From contig VXTR01000012.1 of NCBI GenBank assembly GCA_009837355.1, forward strand, positions 1 to 56,509: a DNA stretch of 56,509 nucleotides, read 5' to 3'. Source of the stretch: Chloroflexota bacterium (GTDB lineage Bacteria > Chloroflexota > Dehalococcoidia > Lucifugimonadales > UBA3495). Under the pieces are notes generated by a model that did no database searches, was not told the DNA's origin, and saw only the letters and a list, made by a program, of their open reading frames with translations. Numbering within the stretch: position 1 is the first letter of the stretch; the number at the start of each line of letters is the position of its first letter. The position numbers were made by a program, and so were the translations under genes. Positions 27,738 through 53,719 of this stretch are shown in pieces.

Positions 27738-30700
27738 TTAGGCTAGCACCCACCCTTCTGACAACGCCTCCGCCTGTTCCAACACCGTCAGAGTAGCCTT
27801 CTCCTGCCTGTCGGGCGGGTAGCCGTGCTTGCGCAGGATGCGCCGCACCAGAACACGGAGCTGCGCCCTCACATTCTCCCGCAGCGTCCAGTCGATAGTG
27901 ACGTTGCTGCGGACGGTCTCCACCAACTCGCGGGCGATGGCGCGCAGCGTCTCGTCGCCCAACACCTGCACAGCGCTGTCGTTGGTTTCCAGGGCATCGT
28001 AGAAGGCGAGCTCGTCATCAGTCAATCCGAGCCTTTCACCCCTAGACGCCGCCTCCCGCATCTCCCTGGCCAGTTGGATCAGTTCCTCAATGACTTGCGC
28101 CGCCTCTATCGCCCGGTTTTGGTAGCGGCGGAGGGTCTGTTCCAGCATCTCAGCGAAGGAGCGGGCTTGAACCACGTTAGCGCGCCGGCGGCTTGATAAT
28201 TCGCCTCGGAGCAGCTTTTGCAACAACTCAACCGCCAGGTTGCGCTGGGGCATCCCCTGAACCTCGGCCAGGAACTCCTCGGACAGCACCGATATATCCG
28301 GTTTGTCCAATCCAGCCGCCGCGAAGATGTCAATCATTCCTTCGGACGCCACCGCGCGGGAAACTATCTGTCGCACGGCCAGTTCCAGTTCCTCTTCCGG
28401 GCGTGCCTCTCCCGCGGTCTGCTTAGATAGGGCGGCCAGCACCGCCTGGAAGAAACCCACGTCGTCGCGGATGCGGAAGGTCTCCTCATGTGGCACTGCC
28501 AGGGCAAAGGCTTGGGATAGCTCGCGTACTGCCGTCATGCAACGGTCCTTGCCGTTTTCCTGAGCCAGGATGTGCTCCTGCGCCGCCGGAAGCAATCCCA
28601 GCCGCTCCGACGGTGTGCCGCTGGTCCACTTCGACCAGTCGAAGCCGTGGAACAAGGCAGAGCCAACATCGTACTTCTCCAGCATGACGGCAACCGCTTC
28701 TTCTTTGTCTATGGCAGTCCGTCCGGTTCCCCCGCTCTCGGTGTAGGTGACCAGCGCCTGACGCAGGTCGTTGGCCAGTCCCAAGTAGTCCACCACCAAC
28801 CCGCCGGGTTTGTCCTTGAACACCCGGTTCACCCGAGCGATGGCCTGCATCAACCCGTGCCCCCGCATTGGCTTGTCCAGGTACATGGTATGCAGGCTGG
28901 GCGCGTCGAAGCCGGTAAGCCACATATCCCGCACCAGCACAATGCGGAAGGGGTCGTCAGGGTCCCGGAAACGGTTGGCAAGGGCCTCCCGCCGGGCTTT
29001 GTTCCTCACATGCTGCTGCCACTCCAACGGGTCCGACGCGGAACCGGTCATCACCACCTTGATGGCGCCTTTGGCGTCGTCGTCATGGTGCCATTCCGGG
29101 CGCAGGCGAACCAGTTCGTCGTACAAGTCAACGCAGATGCGTCGACTCATGCACACCACCATCGCCTTCCCCTCCAGCGCCTCCAGCCGCTGCTCGAGAT
29201 GGTCCACGATGTCCTGGGCAATCTGCCTGACCCGGTTTTCGGCGCCGACAATGGCCTCCAATTGCGCCCACTTGGTCTTCAGCCGTTCCTTGAGTTCGAT
29301 CTCCTCACCCTCGGTGGCTTCCTCGAAATCAGGGTCGATAGCCGGCCGTTCGCTTTCGTCCAGTTCCAGCCGGGCCAGGCGGCTTTCGTAGTGAATGGGC
29401 ACCGTGGCCCTGTCCTCCACGGAACGCTGGATGTCGTAGATGCTGATGTAGTCGCCGAACACCGCCCGGGTGTTGGCGTCCTGCAACTCGATGGGCGTCC
29501 CGGTGAAACCGACAAAGGAGGCGTTGGGTAGCGCGTCCCTCATGTGCCGGGCATAGCCGTCAACGAAGTCGTACTGGCTGCGGTGGGCCTCGTCGGCGAT
29601 GACGACTATGTTGCGCCGCTCCGACAGAGTGGGGTAGGTGTCGCCCCGCTCCTCAGGAAAGAACTTCTGGATCGTGGTGAACACCACGCCCCCCGCGTTT
29701 ACCGACAGTTTTTCCCGTAGGTCAGCCCGGCTTTCGGCTTGCACGGGAGGCTGACGCAACAAATCCTGGCAACGGGAGAAGGTAGTGAAAAGCTGGTCGT
29801 CCAAGTCGTTGCGGTCGGTGAGGACAACAATGGTGGGGTTCTCCATCGCCGGCTCACGCACGATGGCCCCGGCATAGAAGGCCATGGTCAGGCTCTTGCC
29901 CGAACCCTGCGTGTGCCAGACTACCCCGATGCGTCGGTCGCCGGGAGCGCCTCCCGGCCTGCTCCCCGTTTCGTACCTGCCGCGAATTGAGCCCGCAGCG
30001 ATTGCCTGCTCCTGTTGCAACTCTGCTGCCCGCAGGGTCTCGCTCACGGCGGCACGAACGGCGTGGAACTGGTGGTAGCCGGCCATCTTCTTGACGAGCT
30101 TGCCGCTCCCGTCGTCATCAAACACGATGAAATCGCGCAGCAGCGCCAGAAACCGCTCCGGGTAGCAGGCGCCCTCCAGCATCACCTGCAGTTCGGTCAA
30201 GTCAAGAGCCGCCAGTGTCTCGCCGGTGACAGTGCGCCAGGGCTTGAACCATTCTCTGCCCGCGCCCAGGACGCCGATACGAGCTTCAAGGCCATCGGAG
30301 ACCATCAGCATTTCGTTCATAGAGAACAAGGTGGGGAGTTCCGCCTGGTAAGTCTGGAGCTGTTGCCAGGCGCTCCAGATGGTGGCGTCCTCGTCGGCAG
30401 GATTCTTCAACTCGATAACGCCGAGGGGCAGGCCGTTGACGAACAAAACAACGTCGGGTCGGCGGTTGTTCCGGTTTCCGCCCACCGTTTCGGTGACGGT
30501 GAACTGGTTGACCGCCAGCCAGTCGTTGACCGCCCAATCGTCAAAGTCGATAACCTTGGCCGGCTCGCCCCGTATATCGCCGTCGGCGGAGCGGTACTCC
30601 ACCGTTACCCCATTGACCAGCATTCGGTGGAAGGAACGGTTGCGGGCCTCCAGCGTCGCCCCTTCGGGCTGAGTCAGTTTGCGGAAGGCGTCGTCAAGGG

Positions 30701-30896
30701 CTGAAGCCGGCAGGGACGGGTTCAATCTACCCAGAGCATCACGCAGCCGCCGCTCCAGTACCACTTGCCCGTAGTCATCGCGCTCCGCGCCCGGTGCACC
30801 AGGCGCGATGTCAGGCCCGTGGGCTGTCTGCCACCCAATGGTGACGAGCCATTCCAGCGTGGCGGCTTCCACGGTTGATTCGGTGAGAGTGGTCAC
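27738..30896 (-). CDS. hsdR: type I restriction enzyme, subunit R (HsdR)
   Basis: 1052-residue restriction/translocation subunit. The N-terminal PD-(D/E)xK nuclease shows [21 protein letters not shown] (D148, E162, K164). The SF2 translocase has Walker A TQGSGKS (329-335), DEAH (435-438), GFTGTPI and the late [14 protein letters not shown] motif VI region. A helical C-terminal domain for binding the methylase core follows. The start is GTG 30896, 15 bases after the PIN-like gene, so it is the last gene of the minus-strand restriction operon. All catalytic motifs look intact. Confidence 0.95.
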
Positions 30897-30911
30897 GGCT
30901 AGCGCTCGCGA

Positions 30912-31307
30912 TTATATCGCCATGGGCCTGAGACTGGGTGTTGATGTTGGGTTGGAGGCAGTGGCACGGTAATGTCGGTTTCCCGAACGCCCTTGGGTAT
31001 TTTCGAGAAACTTGGGCAAAACGAATGACAGGATGCGTAGTTGCTCCCTACCGGTCATGCGGCCGCCGGGTCGATGGATCAATATCGTTCTGACGTTGCT
31101 CGTTTGGAGCAGCGCCTTATGATGTCGTCGCGCGCGGTCATCAGCGTGGACCCACACCGCTCCGCGAGCTTGGCACCAAGCAATGATTTCGGGATCCAGG
31201 GCACCCCTGCGGCCGAACTCTGCCTCGGCAGTGGTAAAGTTGTAGCCCACTAGATTCAACGCATCCGCCACCGCAGGCGTAAGCGACTCATCCAGCAGGA
31301 ATAGCAA
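30912..31307 (-). CDS. DUF5615-type PIN-like protein (putative toxin)
   Basis: 131-residue Mut7-C/PIN-like protein. With TTG 31307 as start the product opens LLFLLDESLTPAVADALNLVGYNF, matching the family's usual MKFLLDENLSP N-terminus, and continues with DPEIIAWCQARGAVWVHADDR, where the acidic PIN-like residues lie. An ATG start at 31373 would overlap the upstream gene by 65 bases and adds unrelated residues. The TTG comes one base after the DUF433 stop, indicating coupled translation. DUF433-DUF5615 pairs are widely regarded as toxin-antitoxin-like modules. Followed 15 bases later by hsdR. Confidence 0.72.
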   Translation of the reverse strand: MLFLLDESLTPAVADALNLVGYNFTTAEAEFGRRGALDPEIIAWCQARGAVWVHADDRARRHHKALLQTSNVRTILIHRPGGRMTGREQLRILSFVLPKFLENTQGRSGNRHYRATASNPTSTPSLRPMAI

Positions 31308-31308
31308 C

Positions 31309-31998
31309 TCATTGGGATTGGAGCCGGAATTCCCAATCACAAGCAGCTTGCACCGCTTTGGGCGACACCCCATACGCGCCGGCCACCCATTCCATTGAGT
31401 CTCCCGCTGCCACCATACCGGCCAGTGAACGAGTAGGGATTCGTGTCCCTTGGACGCATGGAGCGCCGAACTGTACAGAGGGTTTTAGAATTACGCCGGC
31501 ATAAGGCTCCCATGAAATCGCTTTACGGCTTTCCCCGCCGAACGTAAGGCCGTGTATCGGGAGCAGAAACTCCCTCACTATATCGAGAGCAATCTGGCCG
31601 TGGCGGCTCCCCGAAACTAGCCGGCTTTCCCACTCAGCAAAGACCTGCCCTCTGCCGGCCCAAAGGGTTTCAGTGGCAAAGGGATGCCGAACGCCGGTTG
31701 CTTCGCGCAGCCAGCGTTCCGTTCCCCTTATTTCATTCCAACTGGCGCCGGCTGCACGCAGCGCAGCGATGACCCGCATGGAAATCAAGTCATCGAAATC
31801 GATGAGCAGTTCGCGGCCTGCTACTTGCGCCAGTTCGGGGGCGGCAAACCCACGGCGAATCCACCTGACCAGCTTAGTGGAGCGCATAGGGTAGATGGCG
31901 TCAGCGTTCTCAGTTGCACGCAGATAGCGAGCGGCCTCGGCCGGCTCATAGATGCCTTCCCAAACAGGCGTGGTGGCAGGTTCAATTGCAGTCGTCAC
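31309..31998 (-). CDS. DUF433 domain protein (putative antitoxin)
   Basis: 229-residue protein with two parts. An N-terminal MerR-like helix-turn-helix region (IYEPAEAARYLRATENADA, then STKLVRWIRRGF) precedes a C-terminal DUF433 domain (SVQFGAPCVQGTRIPTRSLA to the end). The start is taken as GTG 31998 with GTGGAGG about 9 bases upstream; ATG 32028 would add ten residues. It pairs with the DUF5615 PIN-like gene one base downstream, and the unit lies between the deoxyribosyltransferase/TIR-like gene and hsdR. Confidence 0.7.
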   Translation of the reverse strand: MTTAIEPATTPVWEGIYEPAEAARYLRATENADAIYPMRSTKLVRWIRRGFAAPELAQVAGRELLIDFDDLISMRVIAALRAAGASWNEIRGTERWLREATGVRHPFATETLWAGRGQVFAEWESRLVSGSRHGQIALDIVREFLLPIHGLTFGGESRKAISWEPYAGVILKPSVQFGAPCVQGTRIPTRSLAGMVAAGDSMEWVAGAYGVSPKAVQAACDWEFRLQSQ

Positions 31999-32076
31999 GG
32001 TGGAGCGCCTCCACCTCGAAACTATCATAAGCGTTGGGCATCTGCAACACGCCACCAACACGGGTAAGGGTGGACA

Positions 32077-33063
32077 TTAGCCCCGGTGCTGCTCTGGCCC
32101 TTCACCGATGACAGCCAGGATGCGATTCTTCAGGCTTTCACGCAGCTCTTCGGGAGTGGTCCAGACGATGTGGTTGTAGTGATTGGTGTCGAAATGCAGG
32201 GCACACACCTTATCCTTCCGACAAGTGAAGATGACCGGAATGCCAAGACCATGGGCGAACCCTGCCTCGTAGTAAACACCGCCTCTAGCCCCATCTTTAC
32301 CCTGAGTGAAGTCCGCCACCAGGAACCTTGATCGCCTGATCTCCGCGATGATTTCGTCGTCGATCTTGTTGATATGTTCCTTACGGTCAATTCGCAGCGG
32401 CTTATACCCAGCGTCCCCGATGGCTGGTTCGATACCTTTCTCACAAGCCTCTTTAGTGCTTTCGTGAAACCACATAGCAACAAACGCTTGGGACGAGTCC
32501 AATGCGTCTTCTTCACGCTGAAGCTCGTCCACCCTGGTGTGGCCTTCGACTGACACCCTCCAATTTACATTCCGACCGAACTCAGGGCCAAATGGGTCCC
32601 GTTCCAACCAGCCTTTCTTTTCTAGGTAATCTAAGAGGTACCGGACATCAAGCTGTTCTGTCGATTCAGACCAAGCCAGTATTTCGTCCCAAATTCCCTG
32701 AAGATGGCCAAATTTACCCAAGCTTTGCGACCTGGTGCCCCAAGAAATATACCTAAGCAATCTATCGGCTCGCGCGTGCACTGGTAGTGGTCGTTTGCTA
32801 CGCAATTCCTCGTAGACTCTGAACGTAATTTGCGGCTTGTAGTTCCCGCGGCACCACTGGTCGATAAGCCACGTGGTCAGCCGCGCCTTTCCGCTGTCCC
32901 GCATCGGCTTGACAAAGATATCCAGCATTGCCTCCGTGATCATATAACCCGCGAAAGCGCGTTTCGACTCCTTTACGTCGTAGATTTTCTTCTCTGGGTC
33001 GTAGCTTCCTTCTGCCTCGTATCTAGTTCCCCAAATAGGGCAAGTTTGGATCGGTTCTGTCAT
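32077..33063 (-). CDS. deoxyribosyltransferase/TIR-like Rossmann protein in the restriction operon
   Basis: 328-residue protein. Residues 1-190 are an unassigned, partly helical, winged-helix-like region beginning with CPIWGTRYEAEG. Residues ~190-320 form a Rossmann-like domain: AFVAMWFHES (first strand), SRFLVADFTQGKDGARGGVYYEAGFAHGLGIPVI, and HYNHIVW. The YYEAGFAHGLG motif with E266 corresponds to the catalytic Glu motif of nucleoside deoxyribosyltransferase and TIR-like hydrolases that attack N-glycosidic bonds, including NAD+. ATG 33063 has GGAG at 9 bases and lies 2 bases after the hsdS stop, so the pair is coupled. An NAD- or nucleotide-targeting effector role is inferred. Confidence 0.65.
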   Translation of the reverse strand: MTEPIQTCPIWGTRYEAEGSYDPEKKIYDVKESKRAFAGYMITEAMLDIFVKPMRDSGKARLTTWLIDQWCRGNYKPQITFRVYEELRSKRPLPVHARADRLLRYISWGTRSQSLGKFGHLQGIWDEILAWSESTEQLDVRYLLDYLEKKGWLERDPFGPEFGRNVNWRVSVEGHTRVDELQREEDALDSSQAFVAMWFHESTKEACEKGIEPAIGDAGYKPLRIDRKEHINKIDDEIIAEIRRSRFLVADFTQGKDGARGGVYYEAGFAHGLGIPVIFTCRKDKVCALHFDTNHYNHIVWTTPEELRESLKNRILAVIGEGPEQHRG

Positions 33064-33065
33064 CG

Positions 33066-34694
33066 TTAAGTGCTCCATTGATTTGCGATTATTTCCCCGG
33101 AAACCAGCTTTGGCAGCAACGCATCCCGCTGGGCAGCGAGGAAGCGGGATTCGTGGATGTTTGAAACTATTTTATCGGTCCACTGCCAAACCACTTCAGC
33201 ATAGGACCGAGCAACTTCAAGACCCGGCAACCCGATCTTGTATAAGGCCATATCCTTCCAGTTAGCGCGCGGCATTCTTGTGCCCGTCGACGTGGCGTCG
33301 GTGTAGTCGATAAACTCGGCGCTGGACAAATGGCCTAACGCCAAGCCAAACCAGTCGCTCGGTTTCGGCGAGACGACTACTATATCTGTCGAACAAACCC
33401 CATCTAATGGTGCAACGCCAACTTTGTGGAAGTATGGCCTCAACTTCCCGAACAGGATGTCGCTTTTATGGAATCTGAATTTGCCGCTCGCCAGACCCTC
33501 CGCATGATCCCACTCTGATAGAGCGACGCACTTTCTCGGCATATGCTCAAGGGCGATGTAAGGGGTACCAGGGCCAATATCCTTCGGCTTAACCGCTTGC
33601 CGGCGTTGAGTCGCTACGTCCCCAATCTCGCCTACCGTCCAACCTTCCGGTATCTCTCCCAGCTCCGAATCCACCAGGCGGTCGGGGAACAGGTCCCACA
33701 GATCCAGGGATAGGTAGGGTTCCCGGCCCTCAATCTTGGTGCGGACGGGGCCGAAGTCCACGAACCAGTCCTGGAAGATGGCCCGGGCCATCGCCTCCAG
33801 CGTCTCGTTCAACCGCCGGTTCAGCTCGATCTTGTCGTCCAGCGCGCCGAGGATGTGGGCGATGGCCCGCTGTTCGGGCAGGGGCGGGAGCATGAACCTA
33901 AACTGTTTAATCCGATCTGGAGACGTGTGTTTCACCGTAGTGCCGGTTGCACTGGCAAGGACCTCTTGGCGATAGTCTGCGGTACACATGACATAGTAGA
34001 GGAATCTCGTATCGATCGCTTCGGCTCTCTTGGGAGTAACCTTTCCAAGACGTTGGTTGTGCAAATAGCGGCGTCCCTCTGGCCTATCGGGTACTAGTGC
34101 TGGGTACCCAAGAGTGTCCGACAGTTTGCTCAGGTCGGTCATCGTGACCAGCAAATCACCTTTGCTGAGAACAAATTCTTCGGGCACATGCCCGTCGTAA
34201 AATTTGAACCTCTCACCCTTAAACCCTCCGCCGACGCCGAAGTTACCAGGCGTGAGCAACACGTCGCCTCGAGGTTCGTCGTGTATGTAATCGCCCTTGA
34301 AAGCGAACCCGTGCTTTATATCAACCATGTCCCCGATAGACACCTGGGCCCACCCGCCGTAACCCTTTGACGTCAATTCGAGACCCACATCCTGCACGAC
34401 CACGTAATCCCGCTCTATCTCCCGGTGGAAGCTCTCCGGGAGCCTGGCCCAGTCGTGGGTTTGCACCAAGATGGGGATGTCGGACTGCTCCAGGGCCTTG
34501 ACCAGCTCGACGTACTCGTAGCCCAGTGGTTCCAGGGTGGGGCTGCGCAAAACCAGGTCCAGGTTGCTGCCGTCGTGGCTCCGGCCGTCGACGCGGCTGC
34601 CGTAGGCCCACACCTCCACGCCGGGCACGTGCTCGCGCAGCAGCGCCTCCAGTTCTTCCCGGTAGGGGAGCGGCAAGTTCAGGCGGTCAGTCAT
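33066..34694 (-). CDS. hsdS: type I specificity subunit HsdS fused to an N-terminal nucleotidyltransferase domain
   Basis: 542 residues. Residues 1-105 form an MNT-like nucleotidyltransferase fold: VEVWAYGSRVDGRSHDGSNLDLVL, with the G-S motif (32-33) and a metal-site variant N44-L-D46 in place of D-x-D. From ~113 an HsdS follows: target-recognition domain 1 (~113-270), spacer helix (LPPLPEQRAIAHILGALDD to QDWFVDFGPVRTK), target-recognition domain 2 (~345-500) and a terminal helix. The ATG at 34694 overlaps the PIN toxin gene by 8 bases. HsdS confers DNA sequence recognition on the HsdM/HsdR complex; the nucleotidyltransferase addition is unusual (see findings). Confidence 0.88.
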   Translation of the reverse strand: MTDRLNLPLPYREELEALLREHVPGVEVWAYGSRVDGRSHDGSNLDLVLRSPTLEPLGYEYVELVKALEQSDIPILVQTHDWARLPESFHREIERDYVVVQDVGLELTSKGYGGWAQVSIGDMVDIKHGFAFKGDYIHDEPRGDVLLTPGNFGVGGGFKGERFKFYDGHVPEEFVLSKGDLLVTMTDLSKLSDTLGYPALVPDRPEGRRYLHNQRLGKVTPKRAEAIDTRFLYYVMCTADYRQEVLASATGTTVKHTSPDRIKQFRFMLPPLPEQRAIAHILGALDDKIELNRRLNETLEAMARAIFQDWFVDFGPVRTKIEGREPYLSLDLWDLFPDRLVDSELGEIPEGWTVGEIGDVATQRRQAVKPKDIGPGTPYIALEHMPRKCVALSEWDHAEGLASGKFRFHKSDILFGKLRPYFHKVGVAPLDGVCSTDIVVVSPKPSDWFGLALGHLSSAEFIDYTDATSTGTRMPRANWKDMALYKIGLPGLEVARSYAEVVWQWTDKIVSNIHESRFLAAQRDALLPKLVSGEIIANQWST

Positions 34695-35103
34695 CGTTGT
34701 CCTCGAAGGGGTTCAGCACCGAAACGCCGGTGGGCGCGAAGTCGCGGACGTTGCGGGTGGCGACGGTGAAGCCGTGCTCAAGGGCAGTGGCCGCGATAAA
34801 CAGGTCAACACTTTCGTTGCCAACGGAGGCTGAGAGGCGGCCCCAGCGAGACGCGATAGCAACATCCACCGGCAAAATGCGGTCTGCAAACCATGACAGG
34901 ATTCGCTCATACCACTGCGCCAAGTCACGGGCAAAGTCGGGGTTTTGGCGTGTTTGCCGGGCAATTCCGCGCTCAATTTCCCCCATCGTTATCACGCTGA
35001 GGTAAACGTCCGACGCCTGCTGAGCTTCCAACCATCGTGTTGGGGCAGGATTGCGTTCCGGTCGACGCAGCGCGGATACTACGTCGGTGTCCATCAGAAA
35101 CAT
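34687..35103 (-). CDS. PIN-domain toxin (VapC family)
   Basis: 138-residue PIN-domain ribonuclease. Counting from the GTG at 35106, the acidic triad is D6 (FLMDTDVVS), E43 (SVITMGEIERG) and D101 (GNESVDLFIAATA), the standard VapC spacing. ATG 35103 is preferred because GGAG lies 5 bases upstream; it overlaps the antitoxin stop by one base (TGATG). The other end overlaps hsdS by 8 bases. VapC toxins cleave tRNA or rRNA and are neutralised by the adjacent antitoxin; the target here is unknown. Confidence 0.88.
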   Translation of the reverse strand: MFLMDTDVVSALRRPERNPAPTRWLEAQQASDVYLSVITMGEIERGIARQTRQNPDFARDLAQWYERILSWFADRILPVDVAIASRWGRLSASVGNESVDLFIAATALEHGFTVATRNVRDFAPTGVSVLNPFEDNDD

Positions 35104-35363
35104 CACAACTCCAGGTCGCGAGGTTTCAGCGGGATGCGTTCGAACAAGTCATCCGGCCCACCCTTGGGAATGGCTAACAGGTGCTCGATAAAGTTGGGCG
35201 CGGCGGCTTTCTCCGTCTGGCATAGCCGCTGGTATTCTTCAAAGGCGACCACCACCACCACCGGCTTGCCCCTACGAGTGACCTCCTGGGGTTCTCCGGT
35301 AAGAGCGGCGTCCACCACTGCGCTGAACCGGTTCTTGGCGTCCTGCAATTGCCAGGTAGTCAT
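35103..35363 (-). CDS. Phd/YefM-family antitoxin
   Basis: 86-residue antitoxin. The N-terminal DNA-binding domain reads MTTWQLQDAKNRFSAVVDAAL then PQEVTRRGKPVVVVV, the classic Phd/YefM signature. The C-terminal tail (LAIPKGGPDDLFERIP) should wrap and inhibit the PIN toxin. ATG 35363 has CGGAG 7 bases upstream. Its own -10 box and direct repeats lie just upstream, consistent with autoregulation. Confidence 0.88.
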   Translation of the reverse strand: MTTWQLQDAKNRFSAVVDAALTGEPQEVTRRGKPVVVVVAFEEYQRLCQTEKAAAPNFIEHLLAIPKGGPDDLFERIPLKPRDLEL

Positions 35364-35373
35364 CGTAAGCTCC

Positions 35374-35397
35374 GTCTAGTCTGTCTAGCCTATTATA
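35374..35397 (-). promoter_or_regulatory. promoter and operator-like repeats of the toxin-antitoxin pair
   Basis: Minus strand: -10 TATAAT (35397-35392), followed by two CTAGAC copies separated by AGA (35388-35374) at the expected transcription start. No good -35 is seen. The direct repeats are a plausible Phd operator. Confidence 0.5.
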
Positions 35398-35424
35398 ACG
35401 CGCCCGTTCCGAGAGCCACCATCC

Positions 35425-37011
35425 TCAGAACCCCAACCGCTTCAAGTTCTCAGCGATGGCCGCATCCAACTGGACCGCCTCCGCTTGCTGATCCCGCCAT
35501 TGGGCGACCAGCCGCCCCATCTTCTCCTCAAAGGGCTCGCCATCGTCGGGCTGCGGCTCCGCGCCCACGTAGCGGCCGGGGGTGAGCACATGGCCGTGCC
35601 GGCGGATTTCCTCCAGCGACGCGCTCTTGCAGAAGCCGAGTACGTCGGCGTAATCCCCATCGCCCCCATGATTCCGCCAGGCGTGGTAGGTATCCGCGAT
35701 GCGGCCTATATCCTCCACCGACAAATCCCGGTGGGTTCGGTTCACCATGTGGCCCAGCTTGCGGGCGTCGATGAACAACGTCTCGCCTGATCGCTTCTCC
35801 CTGGCGCCACGGCCCTTGCGGAGAAACCAGAGACAGGCGGGTATCTGGGTGGAGCGGAACAACTGCCCCGGTAGAGCGATGATGCAGTCCACCAAGCCCG
35901 CCTCGACAATGCTCTTGCGGATGTCTCCCTCACCCGACTGGTTGGACGACATGGAGCCGTTGGCCAACACGAAGCCGGCGACGCCCCGGGGCGCCAGGTG
36001 ATGCAAGAAGTGCTGTACCCAGGCGAAGTTGGCGTTGCCCACTGGAGGCACGCCGTACTCCCACCGTTTGTCGTCTCGCAGCCGTTCCCCGCCCCAATCC
36101 GAATCGTTGAAGAATGGGTTAGCCAGAACGTAATCGGCCCGCAAGTCCGGGTGTCGGTCGTTGTGGAAGGTGTCGCCGTGGGAAATCTGGCCTTCAATGC
36201 CTCGGATAGCCAGGTTCATACGAGCCAACCGCCAAGTGGTGTAGTTGGATTCTTGGCCGTAGATGGAAACGTCGCCCCGAGCTTTTCCGCCGTTGCCGTT
36301 GCCGGTAGCGTGGGCGCGGATGAAGTCCATTGACTGCACGAACATTCCGCCTGAACCACAGCAAGGGTCATAGACCCGGCCTTGGTACGGCTCCAGCATC
36401 TCCACCAGCAGCCGCACCACCGAGCGCGGCGTGTAGAACTCGCCGCCCTTGCGCCCCTCGGCCAGTGCGAACTGCTCCAGGAAGTACTCGTACACCTGCC
36501 CCAGCACGTCATTGGCCTGGGCTTCCGCTCCACCGACCTTGATGTTGCTAACCAGGTCCACCACCTGGCCGAGGCGCTGTTTGTCCAGAGCATCCCGGCC
36601 GTACTCCTTGGGCAGCACGTCTTTCAGCGCTTGGTTGTCCCGTTCCACGGCGGCCATGGCGTCGTCCACGAGCCGGCCGATGGTAGGCTGGCGGGCCTGG
36701 TTTTTCAGGTGCTGCCACCGGGCTTCTGGAGGCACCCAGAAGATGCTCTGGGCGCGGTACTCGTCCGGGTCCTCGGGGTCGGCGCCCTGACCCCGCTCGG
36801 CCTCCAGCTTGGCGTAGGCTTCCTCGAAGGCGTCGGAGATGTACTTGAGGAAGATGAGCCCCAGCGCGACGTGCTTGTACTCGGCCGCGTCCATGCTGCC
36901 CCGCAAAGCGTCGGCCATACGCCAGAGGTCGGCGCGGTAGTCAGTGACGGCATCGCCGCCCGAAGCAGTCGCCGAGCCGCCGTTGTTGCGTCTCCTTCGT
37001 GGCGACGTCAC
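35425..37011 (-). CDS. hsdM: type I restriction-modification methyltransferase HsdM
   Basis: 528-residue N6-adenine methyltransferase. A helical N-terminal domain ([26 protein letters not shown]) precedes SAM motif [11 protein letters not shown] (215-224), then [23 protein letters not shown]. The catalytic motif IV appears as NPFF (298-301, [11 protein letters not shown]) instead of the usual NPPF. The C-terminal region ([16 protein letters not shown]) is typical. GTG 37011 follows AAGG/GGTGA context. It is the first gene of the minus-strand restriction locus, 61 bases before the antitoxin gene. The NPFF variant could affect base flipping or be tolerated. Confidence 0.93.
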
Positions 37012-39086: not shown

Positions 39087-42000
39087 TCACCCCCGTTGCG
39101 TTAGTCTTGGGTAGGGCTGCTTCGCCAGGATTTGGGCAATGACCGAGGCCCTCTCCCGCCGGCCCTGGTCATCCTTTGGTCTGGCCGGTTCGTAGAGGTA
39201 CAGGTCCTCGCGGATGTGCCTCGGACTCGACGCCATTTCGATTATGGGAACCATAAAGGCCCAGTCGGTGGCCAGGTCAACCCATTCGCCGTTAACCTTG
39301 AAATCCGCAACGTCAATGGCGTCGAATAGCCGCTTACGAAAACTTCGCAGATGCTGCCAAACGTTGCTGTCCCACCACCGGGGGTTGTCGAACTTCACGG
39401 GATAATGTCCTTCCTTGTCGAGCCTCAGCATGGACCCCACCGTGGCGTCGGCCCCGCCTGCGTACTCTTCAAGCACTCGGTCCACAACGCGCTCGCCAAT
39501 CAGGGCGTCGTCGGCGTCCAACGTGATGATCACGGAGTCGGGGTTGGCGCAAAAGTTGGCGACGGCGTTCCAGGTATTGTACAGCCCTCCCCGTCGTTGT
39601 GGGTTGTGAACCAAAGTCACCCTCTCCCGCAATTCTGACAGCAACACCTCAGCATAGTCTCCAAAACCGTTGGTTGATGCGTCGTCCACGACCACGGCGC
39701 CCCAGTCTCCGTTGCTTTGAGCGACGAGGGACTCGAAGCAGCGTTTGAACCTGGCAGGCTCCACGTTGCGCCCACATATCACGAAAACGACGGGTTCTTC
39801 CCTTTTAGGTCCCGCCCAATCCCAAGCGGTTCCGGCGAGCTCCACGCGTCCGGCTTGGCTGGCGCTGACGTGGCCCCGTTCGACCGAGGCGATAACCTCA
39901 TGCCAACCGTCAACATCTGTTTTCCTTGCGTTAGGCACGTGAATGAACGCAGTGCGGGGGTTTCCCCCTCGGTAGGACCGATATTCGGTTTCGGCGATGA
40001 ACCGGTCAAAGGCCCGGTGCCACGCCAGGTTGAACCGGCATTGCTCCAGGTTGTTCGCCACAGGCAGGACCGACTGCACCCTTTCCCGGTCGAAAAGGCA
40101 AACTCGCACCTCCACCCGCCAATTGCCATTCGGCCCTTCGTGCGAGTAGGGACGAAAAGCGGAACCACAGATGCTCAGAGACGCAAACAGGGCTCTGTGG
40201 TCACCGCGAAGGACATCAACCATCTCGCTCAGATAGTCGTGGTCGGCATCGTTCCTGGCGATAAGCAGGTCGCTGTCCACCTGCAGCACATAATCGCCCG
40301 AGCAGGAGTCGAAACCGAAGAGTGTGGCGAACAGTTGCTGCCCACCGACCGCATGGGTTTCGGTCGATTCATAGCCGAACCACTTCAGGTACGTAGCGCG
40401 AATGACATCCGGGTCGTCGGCAGCATACACCACCTGGTCAACCACGCCGTCTGCCAGCAGGCGGTCCATCGCCCTGCTATGGGCTTCGGCATCAACGTAG
40501 TCGTGCTGGCGGAGAAACGGCCCCTCCGAAGGATCCACCACGATGACCTTCTGGTAAAACCGCGTTGGAGTTTCCAACTGCCTAACCAGGTGCCGAACTA
40601 GTCGTTCAATGATGCGCCATTCCATCAGGCACGTCTTGATCAGCAGGGAGACCTTGTACTTGGGGACGGGCTGCGGAACGAGTCGAAATACCAGGTGATC
40701 GGAAGCGGGAAGAAGATTCCCGGTGTCCGTCCCGTCCAGTTCCACGACCTCGTCAATTCTGAACCCTGCGGCGGCGAAAGCCGACCTGTAACGGGCTACG
40801 CTCCGATGCACTTCGCTTCTGAGCTGCCCACTGGATACTACGGTCTTTTCGTAGACGAAGGTATTCTCGTATCGAGAGTGGGGAGGCAGGTGTCGGGTCC
40901 ACAACTCGGTGGCGTCCGTGGACAGGTGCAGGGGATTGCACACCGAGATGAGGACCTTGCCAGATTCGGCTACCAAGCGGCGCAAATCCTCCAGGACACG
41001 ACGGAACTCAGCGTCGTCGGCGATGGTGCACATCACCCTGCCACAGGCAACGATGTCGAACTTGGCGTCTTCGTCGAGGAGCCTCTCCAGCAGTTCGGCC
41101 CCGCCGTAGAGGGTGGAGCCGGGCTTTTCCAGGCAGCGGGCGATGCAATCGGGGTCAGGGTCATAACCTGAGACAGTGATACCCAAGGCGGCCAGTTTTT
41201 CGGAGAGCCTCCCGTCGCCACAACCGTAGTCCAACACCGCCTCCGGTCTTTCCCCAGCTATCAGTTCCGCCATTGGTTCGTAGTAGAGTTCGTCCAGACT
41301 ACGGGGAGCCAGCGCCCTCCTGAAGTGATCAAAACCGACGAGTTCGGGGAGGTTGTAGTCCGTCAGTGCTCTGGCCATCAGGCTCTTCAGGTCGGAACGG
41401 AAATGAAAACGGTATGAGAGAAAGGCCCGCCGGCACATGTGGTCGAACTCGTCATTGTCACATGGAACGATGTCGGAGCCGTAGTCAATGAGCTTCAACC
41501 CGGACGAGGTCGTCAGCAGGTTGTCCGGATGGATGTTGCGGCAGGCTATTCCGGCCTCCCGAGCCTCCCTTAGAAGGGTGAGCATCTCCTCCAATTGACC
41601 GCCTTCGTATTTGTTACCCGCTTCGTAGGGGTAAACGGCAACTACCTGTTCCCCCCGTCGGCGGACTTCAAGAAGGTCCGGCAGTGTCCGGAACCCAGAG
41701 AGCTTTCCCACCAGCGATTGCAGGAACACGATCCGCTCTTCGCGGTCCCCGGGTTTCCAATAGTGGAAATACTTGTACACCAGTTTCCCGTCGGTCAGCG
41801 CTACGCCCTCCTCTCCGAGGCCCAGACAGGTCAGGTTGTCGGCTCCGAACTCGTCGCGGATATGTGCTTCCGCAACCTGCCGCAACTGGTCCGCGGGCAA
41901 AGGGGTGTTCATTCGGTATCGGTCAACGATCTGGGGCAAGTCGCGGAGAAAGTCCCGGACGACTTGGAAATCGAAATTGCCGGCGCAGCGCTTGAATTCA

Positions 42001-44378
42001 CCGAGCCGCGCGTCGGTAAACGCTGATTCCAACTCAATCACGAACTGGCCTAATCGGGCCGTGTCCTCTGAGAGGTCTCGCGAGTTAAGCCACCACGGTC
42101 TCGGGTACCTGGATGGAATGCTCTGGCAAAAGACCTTGAGCGCGCTGGTCAGCCCCGCAATCCTGATGAAGTTCAACTCATAGGCCGTTAATCGCTGGTG
42201 GAGGTACTTCCGGCACGACTCTATTGCATCGTCGACTTCGCTGTCGGTGAACAGTAGCAGTTCATTGCCTCGCAGGGACTTGCCGCTTCCCTGACCTTGG
42301 CTGGACTTTTGCTGCAACAGGTCCCTCAACGACGAACACACCGCGAATCCCAGCAGGTCCAGCCCCATCGTGGTGAAATCCATCTTGGCCGTGGCGCTTG
42401 CCTTCCTGGCCTGACGTACTGGGAGCCGAGACTGGAGAATGTCTCGGCCCCCGACATGGCGATTCAATAGGCTCCAGACCATATCGCTGCGGCGAAGGTC
42501 AACCCCGTTGACGCTTGGAACGGAATTGGGGAAGTCGCGGAGGGCCTGGACGTCGAACACCAGCGTAGCCGGCCCCCGGTTCGTGGAAGGAAGTAAGGAT
42601 GAGCCCATTCCGCCGGGCTCATCCTGCACCAGGGGCCGGAAGACCTGCACGCCCGACAGAATATCCGGCAGCTGGCCGACCACTTCACGGAAAGTTTCCT
42701 CCGCCGTTGCAGTCTCCATTTCGGCGGCGAACCAGAAGGGACGTTCCAGTTGGCTGGTTCCGCTGCCGGAGAGATCATAGTAGTAGTCCGCGCTACCTCG
42801 CCGCGCCAGCCGGTTTTCAGCGCTCAGGTCAGGCCATCGGGTATCCGGGGACAGCGAGCATAGGAGGTGTAGGTTGTGATACAGGTCCACCAGTTGAGTG
42901 CGGACGCAACTCAGGGCCGGCAGGGGAGGGTCCCCGGTGACCTCGCAGAGGACCGCACCCGCGCCACTTTCCATCAATTCCCTGATGGCCGACACGTAAT
43001 CAACGTCCGCAACCTGCGGTTTTCCGTCGGAGCCGCAGAGTACACCCTCCAGCGTCACGTCGTCGTCCAGAATCCAAACCACGACCCCGGGAAGAGGTTT
43101 TGCTTCCTGGTACAGGTAATGCTGAAGCATGGTGCGGCTTAGCGCAATGCTCTTGCGCCCGGACAGCTGCTCTGGCGACGCCTCGAAAACGCCGGCAGCC
43201 ACATCGGCTGCCTGCTGTTCCAAAGTCCTGAATACAACATCGGTACCCCGACCCCGCGCATTGCCCACCGGTGACCTCAGGGCTTCCCGGGATGCCTCAT
43301 TGGGACCGCCATTCTCCAAAAGGACCACCTTCAGAGTCACGTTCTCGCATACTCCAATCTTCCTTTCCAGAAAGTGGAGAAGCCGGTCCGTATAGTCGGT
43401 ATCCGGTGACGTGATGGCGCCGGCGACTATGACCAGATTGCTGGAGGATTTGCCCATTGGAAAGCTCGGCATTTGAGGGGGCGAAATCTCAACCGATACC
43501 GTGGGGTCGCAGTTGAAAAGCCTCACGCATCGATCGAGGAAGGCCGCACGCTGGCTTATGGACATGCGGCCCCGGTATTTGCGGTAGAAGTGGGTCAGGC
43601 CTGCGCGCTTGGCGTTCCCTCCCGCCGAGGACAACCGTGGTCGGTCATCTTCAGCGAAATGGTGGACGAGGCACTCATTCAGGGGCCCGAAATTCACAGT
43701 CCCCAGGTCGGCCAGCCTGATGCAGATGTCCCGGTCGGTTGTGCTGGTCAGAGCCTCATCGAATAAGCCAGCCTCCAGCAGCTTTCGCAGTCGGACAAAC
43801 AGGTTGGAACCTTGGATATGTGTGTTGCGCACAAGGAGGTCACTGACATCAAGGCTTTCGGGTGGCGACAGCAGGTCTCCTTCCGAGTCGTGGGATTGGT
43901 GAAATACCAGACCGGCGGCTACCATGTCCAGGCAACCATCCAAAACTGCCAACTCGCACTTTTCCAAGTAGGTCCGTTCCCACGAATCATCGTCGTCCAG
44001 AACCGCCACGAAAGCCTCGGGGTCAAGGTCGTACAGACAGGAAAGGGCCGTGTTCCAAGCGCCGGATGCCCCCGGCGTCCGTTGGTTCTCCTGATAGATG
44101 ACCCTGGTGCCGCGGATATCCACGTCTGACAACGCTTTGGCGTTGGCGGGCTTGAGTTCCAAGTCTGAGTCGTCTACCACAACCAGGTAATCAGGCTGAC
44201 GAGACTGTTCGGACACCGACGCAAGGGAGCGCGCGGCCAGCAATTCCGGTCTGTTGTGGGTAGCGATTACGACGGCTATCGAAAGCAAGGGGAATTTCCA
44301 GATTGATGTCCAATGCAATAGGTCATGCCGATGACTAAGGACCGTATGGCGGCGGATTAGTGTCGATGCCGTTCTCAT
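39087..44378 (-). CDS. giant multidomain glycosyltransferase-kinase-methyltransferase
   Basis: 1763 residues. In order: GT2-type segment (~33-260; VVIATHNRPEL, VLDDDDSW); GT-A-like segment with DDD (~315-640; VWILDDDVTLEG); helical linker (~640-845); kinase-like fold (~850-1000; LGEEGVAL, VYKYFHYWK, catalytic-loop NIHPDNLL, and DYG in place of DFG); class I SAM methyltransferase (~1035-1235; VLDYGCGDGRLSE, GYDPDPDCI); third glycosyltransferase-like core (~1240-1500; YVLQVDSDLLIAR); fourth GT2 (~1525-1763; VDDASTNGFG, ITLDADDALIG). No signal peptide or membrane helix. The start is uncertain: ATG 44378 overlaps a TATAAT box, and TTG 44288 would begin at the first GT2 strand. Presumably builds a decorated glycan; the product is unknown. 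Confidence 0.85.
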   Translation of the reverse strand: MRTASTLIRRHTVLSHRHDLLHWTSIWKFPLLSIAVVIATHNRPELLAARSLASVSEQSRQPDYLVVVDDSDLELKPANAKALSDVDIRGTRVIYQENQRTPGASGAWNTALSCLYDLDPEAFVAVLDDDDSWERTYLEKCELAVLDGCLDMVAAGLVFHQSHDSEGDLLSPPESLDVSDLLVRNTHIQGSNLFVRLRKLLEAGLFDEALTSTTDRDICIRLADLGTVNFGPLNECLVHHFAEDDRPRLSSAGGNAKRAGLTHFYRKYRGRMSISQRAAFLDRCVRLFNCDPTVSVEISPPQMPSFPMGKSSSNLVIVAGAITSPDTDYTDRLLHFLERKIGVCENVTLKVVLLENGGPNEASREALRSPVGNARGRGTDVVFRTLEQQAADVAAGVFEASPEQLSGRKSIALSRTMLQHYLYQEAKPLPGVVVWILDDDVTLEGVLCGSDGKPQVADVDYVSAIRELMESGAGAVLCEVTGDPPLPALSCVRTQLVDLYHNLHLLCSLSPDTRWPDLSAENRLARRGSADYYYDLSGSGTSQLERPFWFAAEMETATAEETFREVVGQLPDILSGVQVFRPLVQDEPGGMGSSLLPSTNRGPATLVFDVQALRDFPNSVPSVNGVDLRRSDMVWSLLNRHVGGRDILQSRLPVRQARKASATAKMDFTTMGLDLLGFAVCSSLRDLLQQKSSQGQGSGKSLRGNELLLFTDSEVDDAIESCRKYLHQRLTAYELNFIRIAGLTSALKVFCQSIPSRYPRPWWLNSRDLSEDTARLGQFVIELESAFTDARLGEFKRCAGNFDFQVVRDFLRDLPQIVDRYRMNTPLPADQLRQVAEAHIRDEFGADNLTCLGLGEEGVALTDGKLVYKYFHYWKPGDREERIVFLQSLVGKLSGFRTLPDLLEVRRRGEQVVAVYPYEAGNKYEGGQLEEMLTLLREAREAGIACRNIHPDNLLTTSSGLKLIDYGSDIVPCDNDEFDHMCRRAFLSYRFHFRSDLKSLMARALTDYNLPELVGFDHFRRALAPRSLDELYYEPMAELIAGERPEAVLDYGCGDGRLSEKLAALGITVSGYDPDPDCIARCLEKPGSTLYGGAELLERLLDEDAKFDIVACGRVMCTIADDAEFRRVLEDLRRLVAESGKVLISVCNPLHLSTDATELWTRHLPPHSRYENTFVYEKTVVSSGQLRSEVHRSVARYRSAFAAAGFRIDEVVELDGTDTGNLLPASDHLVFRLVPQPVPKYKVSLLIKTCLMEWRIIERLVRHLVRQLETPTRFYQKVIVVDPSEGPFLRQHDYVDAEAHSRAMDRLLADGVVDQVVYAADDPDVIRATYLKWFGYESTETHAVGGQQLFATLFGFDSCSGDYVLQVDSDLLIARNDADHDYLSEMVDVLRGDHRALFASLSICGSAFRPYSHEGPNGNWRVEVRVCLFDRERVQSVLPVANNLEQCRFNLAWHRAFDRFIAETEYRSYRGGNPRTAFIHVPNARKTDVDGWHEVIASVERGHVSASQAGRVELAGTAWDWAGPKREEPVVFVICGRNVEPARFKRCFESLVAQSNGDWGAVVVDDASTNGFGDYAEVLLSELRERVTLVHNPQRRGGLYNTWNAVANFCANPDSVIITLDADDALIGERVVDRVLEEYAGGADATVGSMLRLDKEGHYPVKFDNPRWWDSNVWQHLRSFRKRLFDAIDVADFKVNGEWVDLATDWAFMVPIIEMASSPRHIREDLYLYEPARPKDDQGRRERASVIAQILAKQPYPRLTQRG

Positions 44379-51280: not shown

Positions 51281-51320
51281 TAGGATAGGGGCGTTCCGCA
51301 TAGGATAGGGGCGTTCCGCT
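51281..51320. repeat. 20-bp tandem duplication
   Basis: TAGGATAGGGGCGTTCCGCA at 51281-51300 is repeated at 51301-51320 with one mismatch at the last base. It abuts the stop codon of the sensor kinase gene and has no visible coding or hairpin role. Confidence 0.7.
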
Positions 51321-53719
51321 CACTGCGGGTCCCGAGGTTCCTCACCTGTTCCCTCCCCCTCCGGCATCCAGTAGCCCACCCGGGCCTCGGTGAAGACGTA
51401 TCTGGGGTTGCGGGCGTCCTCCCCCAGCTTGGCGCGGAGCTTGGCGACCATGGTGCGCATGGGGTTCAGGTTGGCCTCGGGCGGCTCCCTCCAGACCCGC
51501 TCCAGCAGGTGTTCGTAGGTGAGCACCCGCCCGGCGTTGGCCGACAGCTCGGCCAGCATCCGGTACTCCATTGTCGTCAGCGGCGCCGGCTCCCCGTCCA
51601 GGCTCACTCGGTGCAGGGCGTAGTCGATGACCAGGCTGCCCCGCACGTAGGGCTCCAGGGGCTCGGCCACCTCCCTCCGTCGCAGGGCCGCCCCGATCCG
51701 GGCCGCCAGCTCCGTGGGGGAGAAGGGCTTGACCACGTAGTCCACCGCTCCCAACTCGAAGGCCCGGGCGATGGTGTCGTCCCGCCCGTAGGCGGACAGG
51801 AAGATGACCGGCAGGTCGGCGATCCTCAGGATGTCTCGCATCAGCTCGATGCCGTCGGCATCCGGGAACACCAGGTCCAAGAGGGCCAGCCTGGGCCGCT
51901 CCTCCTGCATCAGGTACAGCGCCTCCTGCGGGTCAGCGGTGACCACCGGCTGATAGCCGGCGTTGGTCAGGGTGTCGCGGACGTAGCGCAGTTCCTGGGG
52001 GTCGTCGTCCACCACCAGCACCTTCACCGGCGCCTCCGCTTCACCCCGCTCCTGCCGCGGAGAGTGGTCCGAGGCCGGAGAGGACGGGCCCTGGGCGGCG
52101 GTCTGCACGGAGGGCAGGGTGAAGGTGAACCGGGCGCCCAGACCCGGGCCGTCGCTCTCGCCCCGGATGCGGCCCCCGTGGGCCTCCACGATGCCCTTGC
52201 AGATGGCCAGGCCCAGGCCGGTGTCCCCACCCGGCTCGCCGGACGGCAGCCGCGTGAACTTCCGGAACAGGTCCGGCATCCGCTCCGCCGGAATGCCCCG
52301 GCCCTCGTCGGTCACCGAGAAGGCCACGTGAACCCCATCCCGGGCGGCGTCCACCCGGATCGCCGAACCCTCCGGGGAGTGACGGGCCGCGTTGGACAGC
52401 AGGTTGCCCAGCACCTGCACGATGCGCCGCCGGTCCGCCAGCACCAGGGGCAGGTCCGGCTCCAGGTCGATGGTCAGGCTGTTCCGGCCGCCGCCGCTGA
52501 AGGCGCTCCTGGCCCGGTCCACCAGCGCTGCCACCTCCGCCGGCTCGGGGCTGACCGCTAGCGTTCCGGTCTCGATGCCCGCCACGTCCAGGAGGTCGGA
52601 CACCAGGTCGTTCATGTGGTTGGCCTGGTCCCCGATGATGCGGAAGAACTGGCGCACCACCGCCGGGTCCAGGTCGGCATTGGACTCCAGCACCGTGCTG
52701 GCGGAGCCCTTGATGGAGGTCAGGGGGGCGCGCAGCTCGTGGCTGACCATGGCCAGGAACTCGGCCCGCATCCGCTCCAGCTCCTCCACCCCGGCCAGGT
52801 CCTGCATGGTGACCACCACCGACTCCACCCCGCCGTCCTCGGACAGGATGGGCGTGGCGTTGAGCAGCACCGTGACGCTGCGTCCGTCCGGGACCCGCAG
52901 CACGATCTCCTCGGCGTGGACCGTCTCCTCCACGCTCAAGAGCCCGGCCAGAGGGAACTCCTGCAGGGAGAACTCCCGCCCGTCGGCCCGCCGGAGGGTC
53001 AAAACGCTCAGCAGGTCCACCGGCGACTGGCCGGGACCCCGGAGGCCGTCCACGATGCGGGTGGCCTCCCGGTTGAAGGACGCCGGCGCCCCGGTCCTGG
53101 CGTCGAAGACCGCCACACCCACCGGGGAGGTGTCGATCAGGGTCTCCAACCCGGTCCGGGCCCGCTGTTCCTCCCGGTGGCGGCGAGCGTTGGCGATGGC
53201 CATAGCCGCCTGGGCCGCGAACATGACCAAGGTCTCCTCGTCCTCCAGAGTGAACTCCCGCCCGCCTTCCTTCTCGGCCAGGAAGACGCTGCCGACGCGT
53301 TCTCCCAGGTGCAGCACGGGAGCCGCCAGGAAGGACACCCTGGGGCTTACCGCCAGCGGGGGCTCCAGCTTGGGCAGGCCCAGGGACCGGATGTGGCCCA
53401 GCAGGTCCGCGACCCGCAGGGGGACGGGTAGCCCCGCCAGGTACTGGAAGTGCTCCGGCCAGCCCTGAATTTGCCACACCCTTTCCGCCTCTTCGGCCGT
53501 CATCCCCGAGGAGAGGAAGTCCCCGGCGCTTCCGGCATCGTCGTGCAGGGCGATGACGCCGTAGCGGGCGCCGGTGAGGGCCCGGGCGGAGTCCAGCACA
53601 CCCTGCAAGACGGTGTCGAAGTCCAGGCTCTCGTTGACCCGGAGACTGGCCTGGCTAAGGAGAGCCAGGCGCTCTTCCAATTCCCGTATCCGTTGGTCTC
53701 GCTGGTCGGGCAGGTTCAA
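51320..53719 (-). CDS. GAF-PAS histidine kinase fused to receiver and OmpR-type DNA-binding domain
   Basis: 799-residue soluble one-protein two-component system. In order: GAF (~30-180), PAS (~190-305), HisKA with H327 (FLAMVSHELRAPLTSIKG), HATPase (NLLSNAARHSPEG, DEGRGIP, GDTGLGLAI; ~425-540), receiver (~565-680; DDD at 571-573, phospho-Asp D615 in ALLDLVFPDADG, K664), and winged helix (~690-785; LTTMEYRMLAEL, VGYWMPEGEG). No membrane helix. TTG 53719 is the start, with GGAGG 7 bases upstream. Phosphotransfer H327 to D615 would switch its own DNA-binding domain. Divergent from a LivK-like binding protein; two other fragments of this family lie within 9 kb. Confidence 0.88.
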   Translation of the reverse strand: MNLPDQRDQRIRELEERLALLSQASLRVNESLDFDTVLQGVLDSARALTGARYGVIALHDDAGSAGDFLSSGMTAEEAERVWQIQGWPEHFQYLAGLPVPLRVADLLGHIRSLGLPKLEPPLAVSPRVSFLAAPVLHLGERVGSVFLAEKEGGREFTLEDEETLVMFAAQAAMAIANARRHREEQRARTGLETLIDTSPVGVAVFDARTGAPASFNREATRIVDGLRGPGQSPVDLLSVLTLRRADGREFSLQEFPLAGLLSVEETVHAEEIVLRVPDGRSVTVLLNATPILSEDGGVESVVVTMQDLAGVEELERMRAEFLAMVSHELRAPLTSIKGSASTVLESNADLDPAVVRQFFRIIGDQANHMNDLVSDLLDVAGIETGTLAVSPEPAEVAALVDRARSAFSGGGRNSLTIDLEPDLPLVLADRRRIVQVLGNLLSNAARHSPEGSAIRVDAARDGVHVAFSVTDEGRGIPAERMPDLFRKFTRLPSGEPGGDTGLGLAICKGIVEAHGGRIRGESDGPGLGARFTFTLPSVQTAAQGPSSPASDHSPRQERGEAEAPVKVLVVDDDPQELRYVRDTLTNAGYQPVVTADPQEALYLMQEERPRLALLDLVFPDADGIELMRDILRIADLPVIFLSAYGRDDTIARAFELGAVDYVVKPFSPTELAARIGAALRRREVAEPLEPYVRGSLVIDYALHRVSLDGEPAPLTTMEYRMLAELSANAGRVLTYEHLLERVWREPPEANLNPMRTMVAKLRAKLGEDARNPRYVFTEARVGYWMPEGEGTGEEPRDPQ

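Follow-up and report, generated by a model that had tools for sequence, protein, structure and literature searches.

Results

A six-module protein encoded by one intact reading frame

The stretch of DNA analysed here (hereafter the window, 56,509 nt) comes from contig VXTR01000012.1 of a Chloroflexota bacterium (GCA_009837355.1; Dehalococcoidia, Lucifugimonadales, UBA3495). On its minus strand lies an open reading frame for a protein of 1763 amino acids, which contains no internal stops and divides into six predicted modules (Table 1).

Table 1. Position in the window of the gene, its predicted modules and one key codon.
Feature	Residues	Position	Strand	Basis
Whole gene, six modules	1763 aa	39087..44378	-	Intact ORF; nine full-length homologous loci
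GT1, predicted GT2-type glycosyltransferase	28-305	43464..44297	-	PF00535; PDB profile matches 9jma (2.5e-9) and 6p61; invariance
seg2, predicted GT-A core	306-660	42399..43463	-	AlphaFold model; VIA fold matches
seg2, predicted helical tail	661-845	41844..42398	-	Helices in the model, 20-39 residues each
Predicted kinase-like module	846-1036	41271..41843	-	Profile against CK2; column check 13/13
Codon of Asn948 (catalytic-Asp position)	948	41535..41537	-	CK2 HRD alignment; Asn in 13/13
Predicted SAM methyltransferase	1037-1236	40671..41270	-	PF13489 (1.1e-12, Methyltransf_23); PDB profiles
GT3, predicted GT-A fold	1237-1530	39789..40670	-	AlphaFold model and fold search
GT4, predicted GT2-type glycosyltransferase	1531-1763	39090..39788	-	PF00535; TagF 3l7m profile match

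An earlier description of this locus, made from the DNA letters alone (the sequence-only reading), proposed four glycosyltransferase-type segments, a kinase-like fold and a SAM methyltransferase in one soluble chain. All the motifs that it listed were recovered, namely DDDD128-131 followed by SW, DDD438-440, D1368-S-D1370 and D1621-A-D-D1624 in the four segments, HPDN (950-953) and D965-Y-G967 in the kinase-like block, and D1050-YGCGDG in the methyltransferase. In the alignment of ten full-length members, 201 of the 1763 columns are invariant, and since the motif aspartates, Lys869, Asn948, Asn953, Asp965 and Gly967 are among them, these residues are not there by chance.

A mis-joined frame, which the sequence-only reading had named as a possible objection, or a chimera was ruled out by nine full-length homologous loci in other genomes. 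Because these homologues match in length and come from independent genomes, the frame is judged to be real and the order of the six modules to be inherited; the expectation that few homologues would share this order also agrees with the nine other loci found. The N-termini of the homologues fall near residues 28-33, and for this reason the true start may lie about 30 codons further downstream, although the first 40 codons offer no alternative start triplets other than two TTG. No clear transmembrane stretch was detected by the Kyte-Doolittle scale, in agreement with a soluble protein, and no membrane anchor or exporter for it was found.

Predicted glycosyltransferase and methyltransferase modules

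The Pfam family PF00535 (Glycos_transf_2) matched the protein in two stretches (1.8e-31), the best of which (residues 1537-1677) lies in GT4, and the profiles of both GT1 and GT4 matched solved GT2 enzymes in the PDB profile search. With PF00535 above cut-off and a DxD motif in each, GT1 and GT4 are both predicted to be GT2-type glycosyltransferases. The DDDD motif and D215/D217 are invariant in GT1, and GT4 carries an invariant DADD (1621-1624) together with D1705. The methyltransferase assignment was borne out by PF13489 and by PDB profile matches to 3g5l (2.6e-10) and WbdD (4azw, 9e-4), which together with the motif I-like DYGCGDG point to a class I SAM-dependent enzyme.

No PDB sequence match was obtained for GT3 or for the second segment (seg2), and therefore models of both were built from sequences of the window and of the loci. 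The AlphaFold model of GT3 (pLDDT 88) aligned with GnT-I (1fo9) at a VIA Z of 15.0 over 198 residues and matched COLGALT1 in Foldseek (3e-7). Its motifs are D1368xD1370, which is invariant, and WHRxxD at 1453-1458, and on the modelled GT-A fold with its DxD, GT3 is predicted to be a GT-A glycosyltransferase. A GT-A fold is accordingly predicted for all four segments that had been read as glycosyltransferase-type (from Pfam and PDB profiles for GT1 and GT4, from modelling followed by fold search for GT3 and seg2), but seg2 is doubtful as a transferase because its closest solved structure is an NDP-sugar mutase. Comparison of module against module by profiles revealed no significant similarity, so the glycosyltransferase modules are not recent duplications of a kind detectable by profile; plain blastp between modules gave a weak match between GT1 and GT4 (0.002) and nothing else.

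seg2 is modelled as an MtdL-like GT-A fold

The top fold match of the seg2 model (pLDDT 83) was MtdL (7xpr; VIA Z 20.6, 3.2 A, 299 residues), followed by plant UAM (8cid, Z 16.3) and by GalNAc-transferases and mannosyl-3-phosphoglycerate synthase (Z near 16). MtdL is a GT75 NDP-pyranose/furanose mutase of an antibiotic pathway, in which Arg159 is autoglycosylated and essential and whose motifs are DDD109-111, Arg257-x-x-Asp260 and His287-x-Arg289, with the His as Mn ligand (PMC9937993). The likeness of seg2 to GT75 proteins (MtdL, plant UAM) covers the overall fold, including the helical tail, and possibly the motifs and their order: when aligned by MAFFT with GT75 sequences, DDD438-440, R629-R-S-D632 (RRxD, 629-632) and [QH]656-x-R658 lie in register with those of MtdL. 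Position 656 of the window protein is Gln, whereas MtdL has the Mn-ligand His. The RGYP loop of MtdL was aligned to LExPF of seg2, which left Arg159 without a counterpart; Arg493 and Arg601, both invariant, are the candidates for this role.

MtdL is a stand-alone enzyme, whereas seg2 is one module of six and shows no significant sequence similarity to it. By sequence, seg2 matched no Pfam family (including RGP) and no PDB entry, its hhalign probability against GT75 (PF03214) was below 1 percent, its score against the GT75 HMM was below that of shuffled sequences, and the pairwise Z of 3.6 among 84 pairs was not significant. GT75 membership on sequence was thus rejected and common sequence ancestry is unsupported. 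When BFVD was searched with seg2, the matches were uncharacterised viral proteins and generic glycosyltransferases. On its model, whose next family scores Z 16.3, seg2 is best called an MtdL-like GT-A module, either mutase or transferase, and it may make a furanose donor instead of transferring a sugar.

Separately, a PF03214 (RGP/GT75) protein of bacterial origin was identified at L031:1495-3111 on the minus strand. Its relationship to MtdL is clear (E 9e-20), and the 400 genomes sampled from the phylum contained no other.

An invariant Asn in the kinase-like module

The profile of 13 kinase-like members matched CK2 (6ise) with an E-value of 2.7e-7 over a span running from after the Gly loop to DFG, which bears out the kinase-like fold of the sequence-only reading. 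Gly853, Gly855, Glu857, Lys869, Asn953, Asp965 and Gly967 do not vary among the 13 members, and a kinase-like fold with Gly loop, VAIK Lys and DFG Asp is predicted from this alignment. The family stretch 'rNihpdN' aligns on 'RDvkpHN' of CK2, which puts Asn948 at the catalytic Asp; the HRD Asp of an active kinase is absent from all 13 members, each having Asn in its place. Retention of the Asp of HPDN had been expected as the sign of an active kinase, and this part did not hold, as residue 952 is D, T or K across the family and is not the catalytic position. ATP binding by the module may persist, while ordinary kinase chemistry appears unlikely. A phosphate cap likewise appears unlikely because the true catalytic Asp is the invariant Asn948, and a methyl-only modification of the product is possible.

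Distribution and reshuffling of the family

The whole chain, in the same order, was detected at nine other loci from Dehalococcoidia, a Poribacteria MAG and three IMG/VR contigs, with 28-60% identity. Five other genomes of the same order and the Poribacteria contig carry full-length homologues at 47-60% identity, and scanning IMG/VR with alignments of the kinase-like module and of seg2 added L027/L030 (28%) and L028 and L029 (37%). Since the Poribacteria copy (L009) is placed by a 10-kb MAG contig, its placement could be a binning error. Incomplete copies were found at L012, which stops after the methyltransferase, at L010, which is split and lacks the first part, and at L020, where GT1 occurs by itself as a 329-aa gene.

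The family is rare. Under strict thresholds, and in samples of genomes that count the window's own, it was present in 5 of 50 genomes of the family and 3 of 393 of the class; the kinase-like module was found in 9 of 247 genomes of the order, and seg2 in 1 of 400 of the phylum. No close relative was obtained from E. coli genomes (megablast) and no full-length homologue from annotated phage records. The phage-contig search gave no matches with the window protein's own peptides, L027-L029 with alignment-based peptides, and only L027 again with L027 peptides. PHROGs matched the window protein as generic glycosyltransferases only, with no known phage family. As a known defence system the protein was rejected, PADLOC yielding only a generic methyltransferase cross-hit (mad2).

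The family is also mobile, and is spread over several phyla and a phage-like genome. The genes adjoining the synthase mostly differ between copies, which indicates repeated gain and loss. The modules themselves are reshuffled or split on gammaproteobacterial plasmids: the order in Pseudoalteromonas donghaensis is GT1, kinase and seg2, without methyltransferase, GT3 and GT4, and in Salinivibrio GT1 is separate and a second protein comprises a GT, kinase, GT3 and GT4, again without methyltransferase. Across the reshuffled copies, the partner most often retained is the kinase-like module, which suggests that it matters even without the catalytic Asp. C-terminal additions were also observed. In L027 a SLOG domain is fused to the C-terminus, and the 1964-aa synthases at L028:1412-7303 and L029:5643-11534 end in a histidine-phosphatase domain and are followed on the 3' side by a methyltransferase gene and a SLOG/TIGR00725 gene. 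Because the LDcluster4 SLOG family is present in 13 of 14 control genomes, this association is weak evidence.

Gene neighbourhoods

Downstream of the gene in the window are a GMC oxidoreductase ORF and, past it, a type I restriction system (HsdM, HsdS, HsdR) whose HsdM lies about 2 kb from the gene; upstream are a small PH-domain-like ORF and an IS30-like integrase ORF. No glycan gene cluster is near the gene in the window or in most Dehalococcoidia copies, and a Pfam scan of the larger ORFs around the gene (24-56 kb of the window) revealed no Wzm/Wzt ABC transporter; for this question the homologous loci were viewed as unannotated ORFs.

Genes for a GalU-like uridylyltransferase, a nucleotide-sugar dehydrogenase and a GalE-like epimerase surround the Poribacteria copy; SDR-epimerase-like ORFs of one family adjoin the gene in L016 and L017; and a UDP-glucose-dehydrogenase-like gene follows it in L027/L030. 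These neighbours support nucleotide sugars as the substrates. The contig L030:1-21397 is temperate-phage-like, with integrase, anti-repressor, replication and HNH genes, and an AccI-type restriction pair is located immediately upstream of its SLOG-fused synthase. An ORF resembling S-adenosylmethionine synthetase (phrog_1569) was also noted on L030. The Pseudoalteromonas copy (L013:23388-26505), in a conjugation-related plasmid stretch, is followed by ribA (GTP cyclohydrolase II), an asparagine-synthase-like gene and an arylamine N-acetyltransferase gene, possibly a small-molecule pathway.

Discussion

To our knowledge, only a few O-antigen systems are known to assemble a glycan on a single chain that also carries capping modules. 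The nearest described are those of Klebsiella pneumoniae, in which O7 ORF6 joins a methyltransferase, a kinase, a coiled coil and two GT2 modules in one chain and O12 has polymerase and terminator on one chain (PMC11231755). The window family has the same module types on one chain. However, its module order differs, the catalytic Asp of the kinase is replaced by Asn, an MtdL-like module and an extra GT are added, and neither a long coiled-coil ruler (in the model of seg2) nor nearby ABC transporter genes were seen. The O-antigen analogy of the sequence-only reading stands for the kinds of module present (PMC11231755), and we describe the family as resembling the O7/O12 polymerase-terminators without assigning it to them. 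Like WbdD (E. coli O9a, Klebsiella O3), it has a methyltransferase adjoining a kinase-like domain, with the weak profile match to 4azw, whereas WbdD has no GT modules and an active kinase. With the chondroitin and hyaluronan synthases K4CP and chlorella virus HAS it shares GT-A folds, two per chain in K4CP, but these enzymes lack kinase-like and methyltransferase modules and HAS is membrane-bound. Compared with the O-antigen systems, the present family differs in the order of its modules, in the Asn that always occupies the catalytic position of the kinase-like domain and in a fourth GT-A module that is more mutase-like than transferase-like; it occurs on plasmids and in a phage-like genome as well as in Poribacteria and uncultured Dehalococcoidia.

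We consider it probable that the 1763-residue protein is a soluble single-chain glycan synthase that moves between lineages and occurs in a phage-like genome. Folds and motifs, their conservation, the reshuffling and the nucleotide-sugar genes beside some copies are observations; from here on, we infer module activities, acceptor, product and biological purpose. GT1, GT3 and GT4, with metal-binding and candidate base aspartates intact, would each add one sugar to a growing short glycan, and seg2 would either add a fourth sugar or provide the neighbouring modules with a ring-contracted (furanose) nucleotide-sugar donor. The SAM module would methylate the product. The kinase-like module would probably still bind ATP and serve as a scaffold, a regulator or an unusual phosphotransfer site, not as a normal kinase. 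The gene would be a ready-made cassette for glycosylating a surface or a metabolite, carried from lineage to lineage and also by a phage-like genome. The self-contained synthase for a capped glycan that was first proposed keeps its single chain of six modules with GT, kinase-like and methyltransferase folds, but its cap is unlikely to be phosphate, given Asn948.

A more specific form of this proposal, which we consider less likely than not, is a self-sufficient furanose-glycan synthase with its own GT75-fold mutase, three transferases, a methyltransferase and an invariably Asn-substituted regulatory kinase-like domain, spreading across phyla and temperate phages. The mutase would then be metal-dependent, would interconvert NDP-pyranose and NDP-furanose for use by the transferases, and would represent a new branch of the GT75 fold not recognisable by sequence. 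The family bears on whether supply and transfer of NDP-furanose can share one chain, and on the role of a kinase-like domain without catalytic Asp within a glycan synthase.

We regard as unlikely a polymerase-terminator like WbdD or O7 ORF6, in which the GTs would polymerise and kinase and methyltransferase would cap the chain with methyl phosphate and so fix its length. One chain with these module types is established for O7 ORF6 and O12 (PMC11231755), and the methyltransferase profile reaches WbdD, but the catalytic Asp is Asn in every kinase-like member, Wzm/Wzt were not among the Pfam-scanned ORFs around the window gene, and the model of seg2 gives its tail as several separate helices, each 20-39 residues long and the two longest 30 and 39, which do not look like an extended coiled-coil ruler. 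Equally improbable to us is that the protein makes a small molecule bearing sugars and methyl groups (a natural product or conflict metabolite) rather than a cell-surface glycan. The genes after the Pseudoalteromonas copy, the fused or adjacent SLOG/TIGR00725 domain and the histidine phosphatase of the phage-like copies, and the antibiotic pathway of MtdL (PMC9937993) would fit such a product; however, four GT-A modules and nucleotide-sugar genes (L009, L027) suit an oligosaccharide equally, and LDcluster4 SLOG proteins are ubiquitous in the control genomes. Least likely is a gene of mobile elements or phages that would modify the host surface or the glycan of the particle and thereby keep other phages out, with the restriction genes of type I and AccI type close to two copies as shared defence cargo, as most chromosomal copies have no restriction neighbours and defence-system families match only by a generic methyltransferase cross-hit, despite the temperate-phage-like L030 with AccI genes immediately upstream, the plasmid copies and the HsdM in the window.

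Among the other genes of the window, the type I restriction system occupies 27738-37011 on the minus strand, and between HsdS and HsdR are a DUF433 ORF and a PIN-like ORF (a toxin-antitoxin-like pair) and a nucleoside-deoxyribosyltransferase-like ORF. The HsdS-like subunit (33066-34694, minus strand) has its specificity domains from residue ~114, and its first ~100 residues bear a weak likeness to a nucleotidyltransferase (NTP_transf_2 / Polbeta, E about 0.002-0.006). The ORF at 51320-53719 on the minus strand encodes an entire signalling chain in one protein, with GAF/PAS, histidine kinase, receiver and winged-helix DNA-binding (Trans_reg_C) domains.
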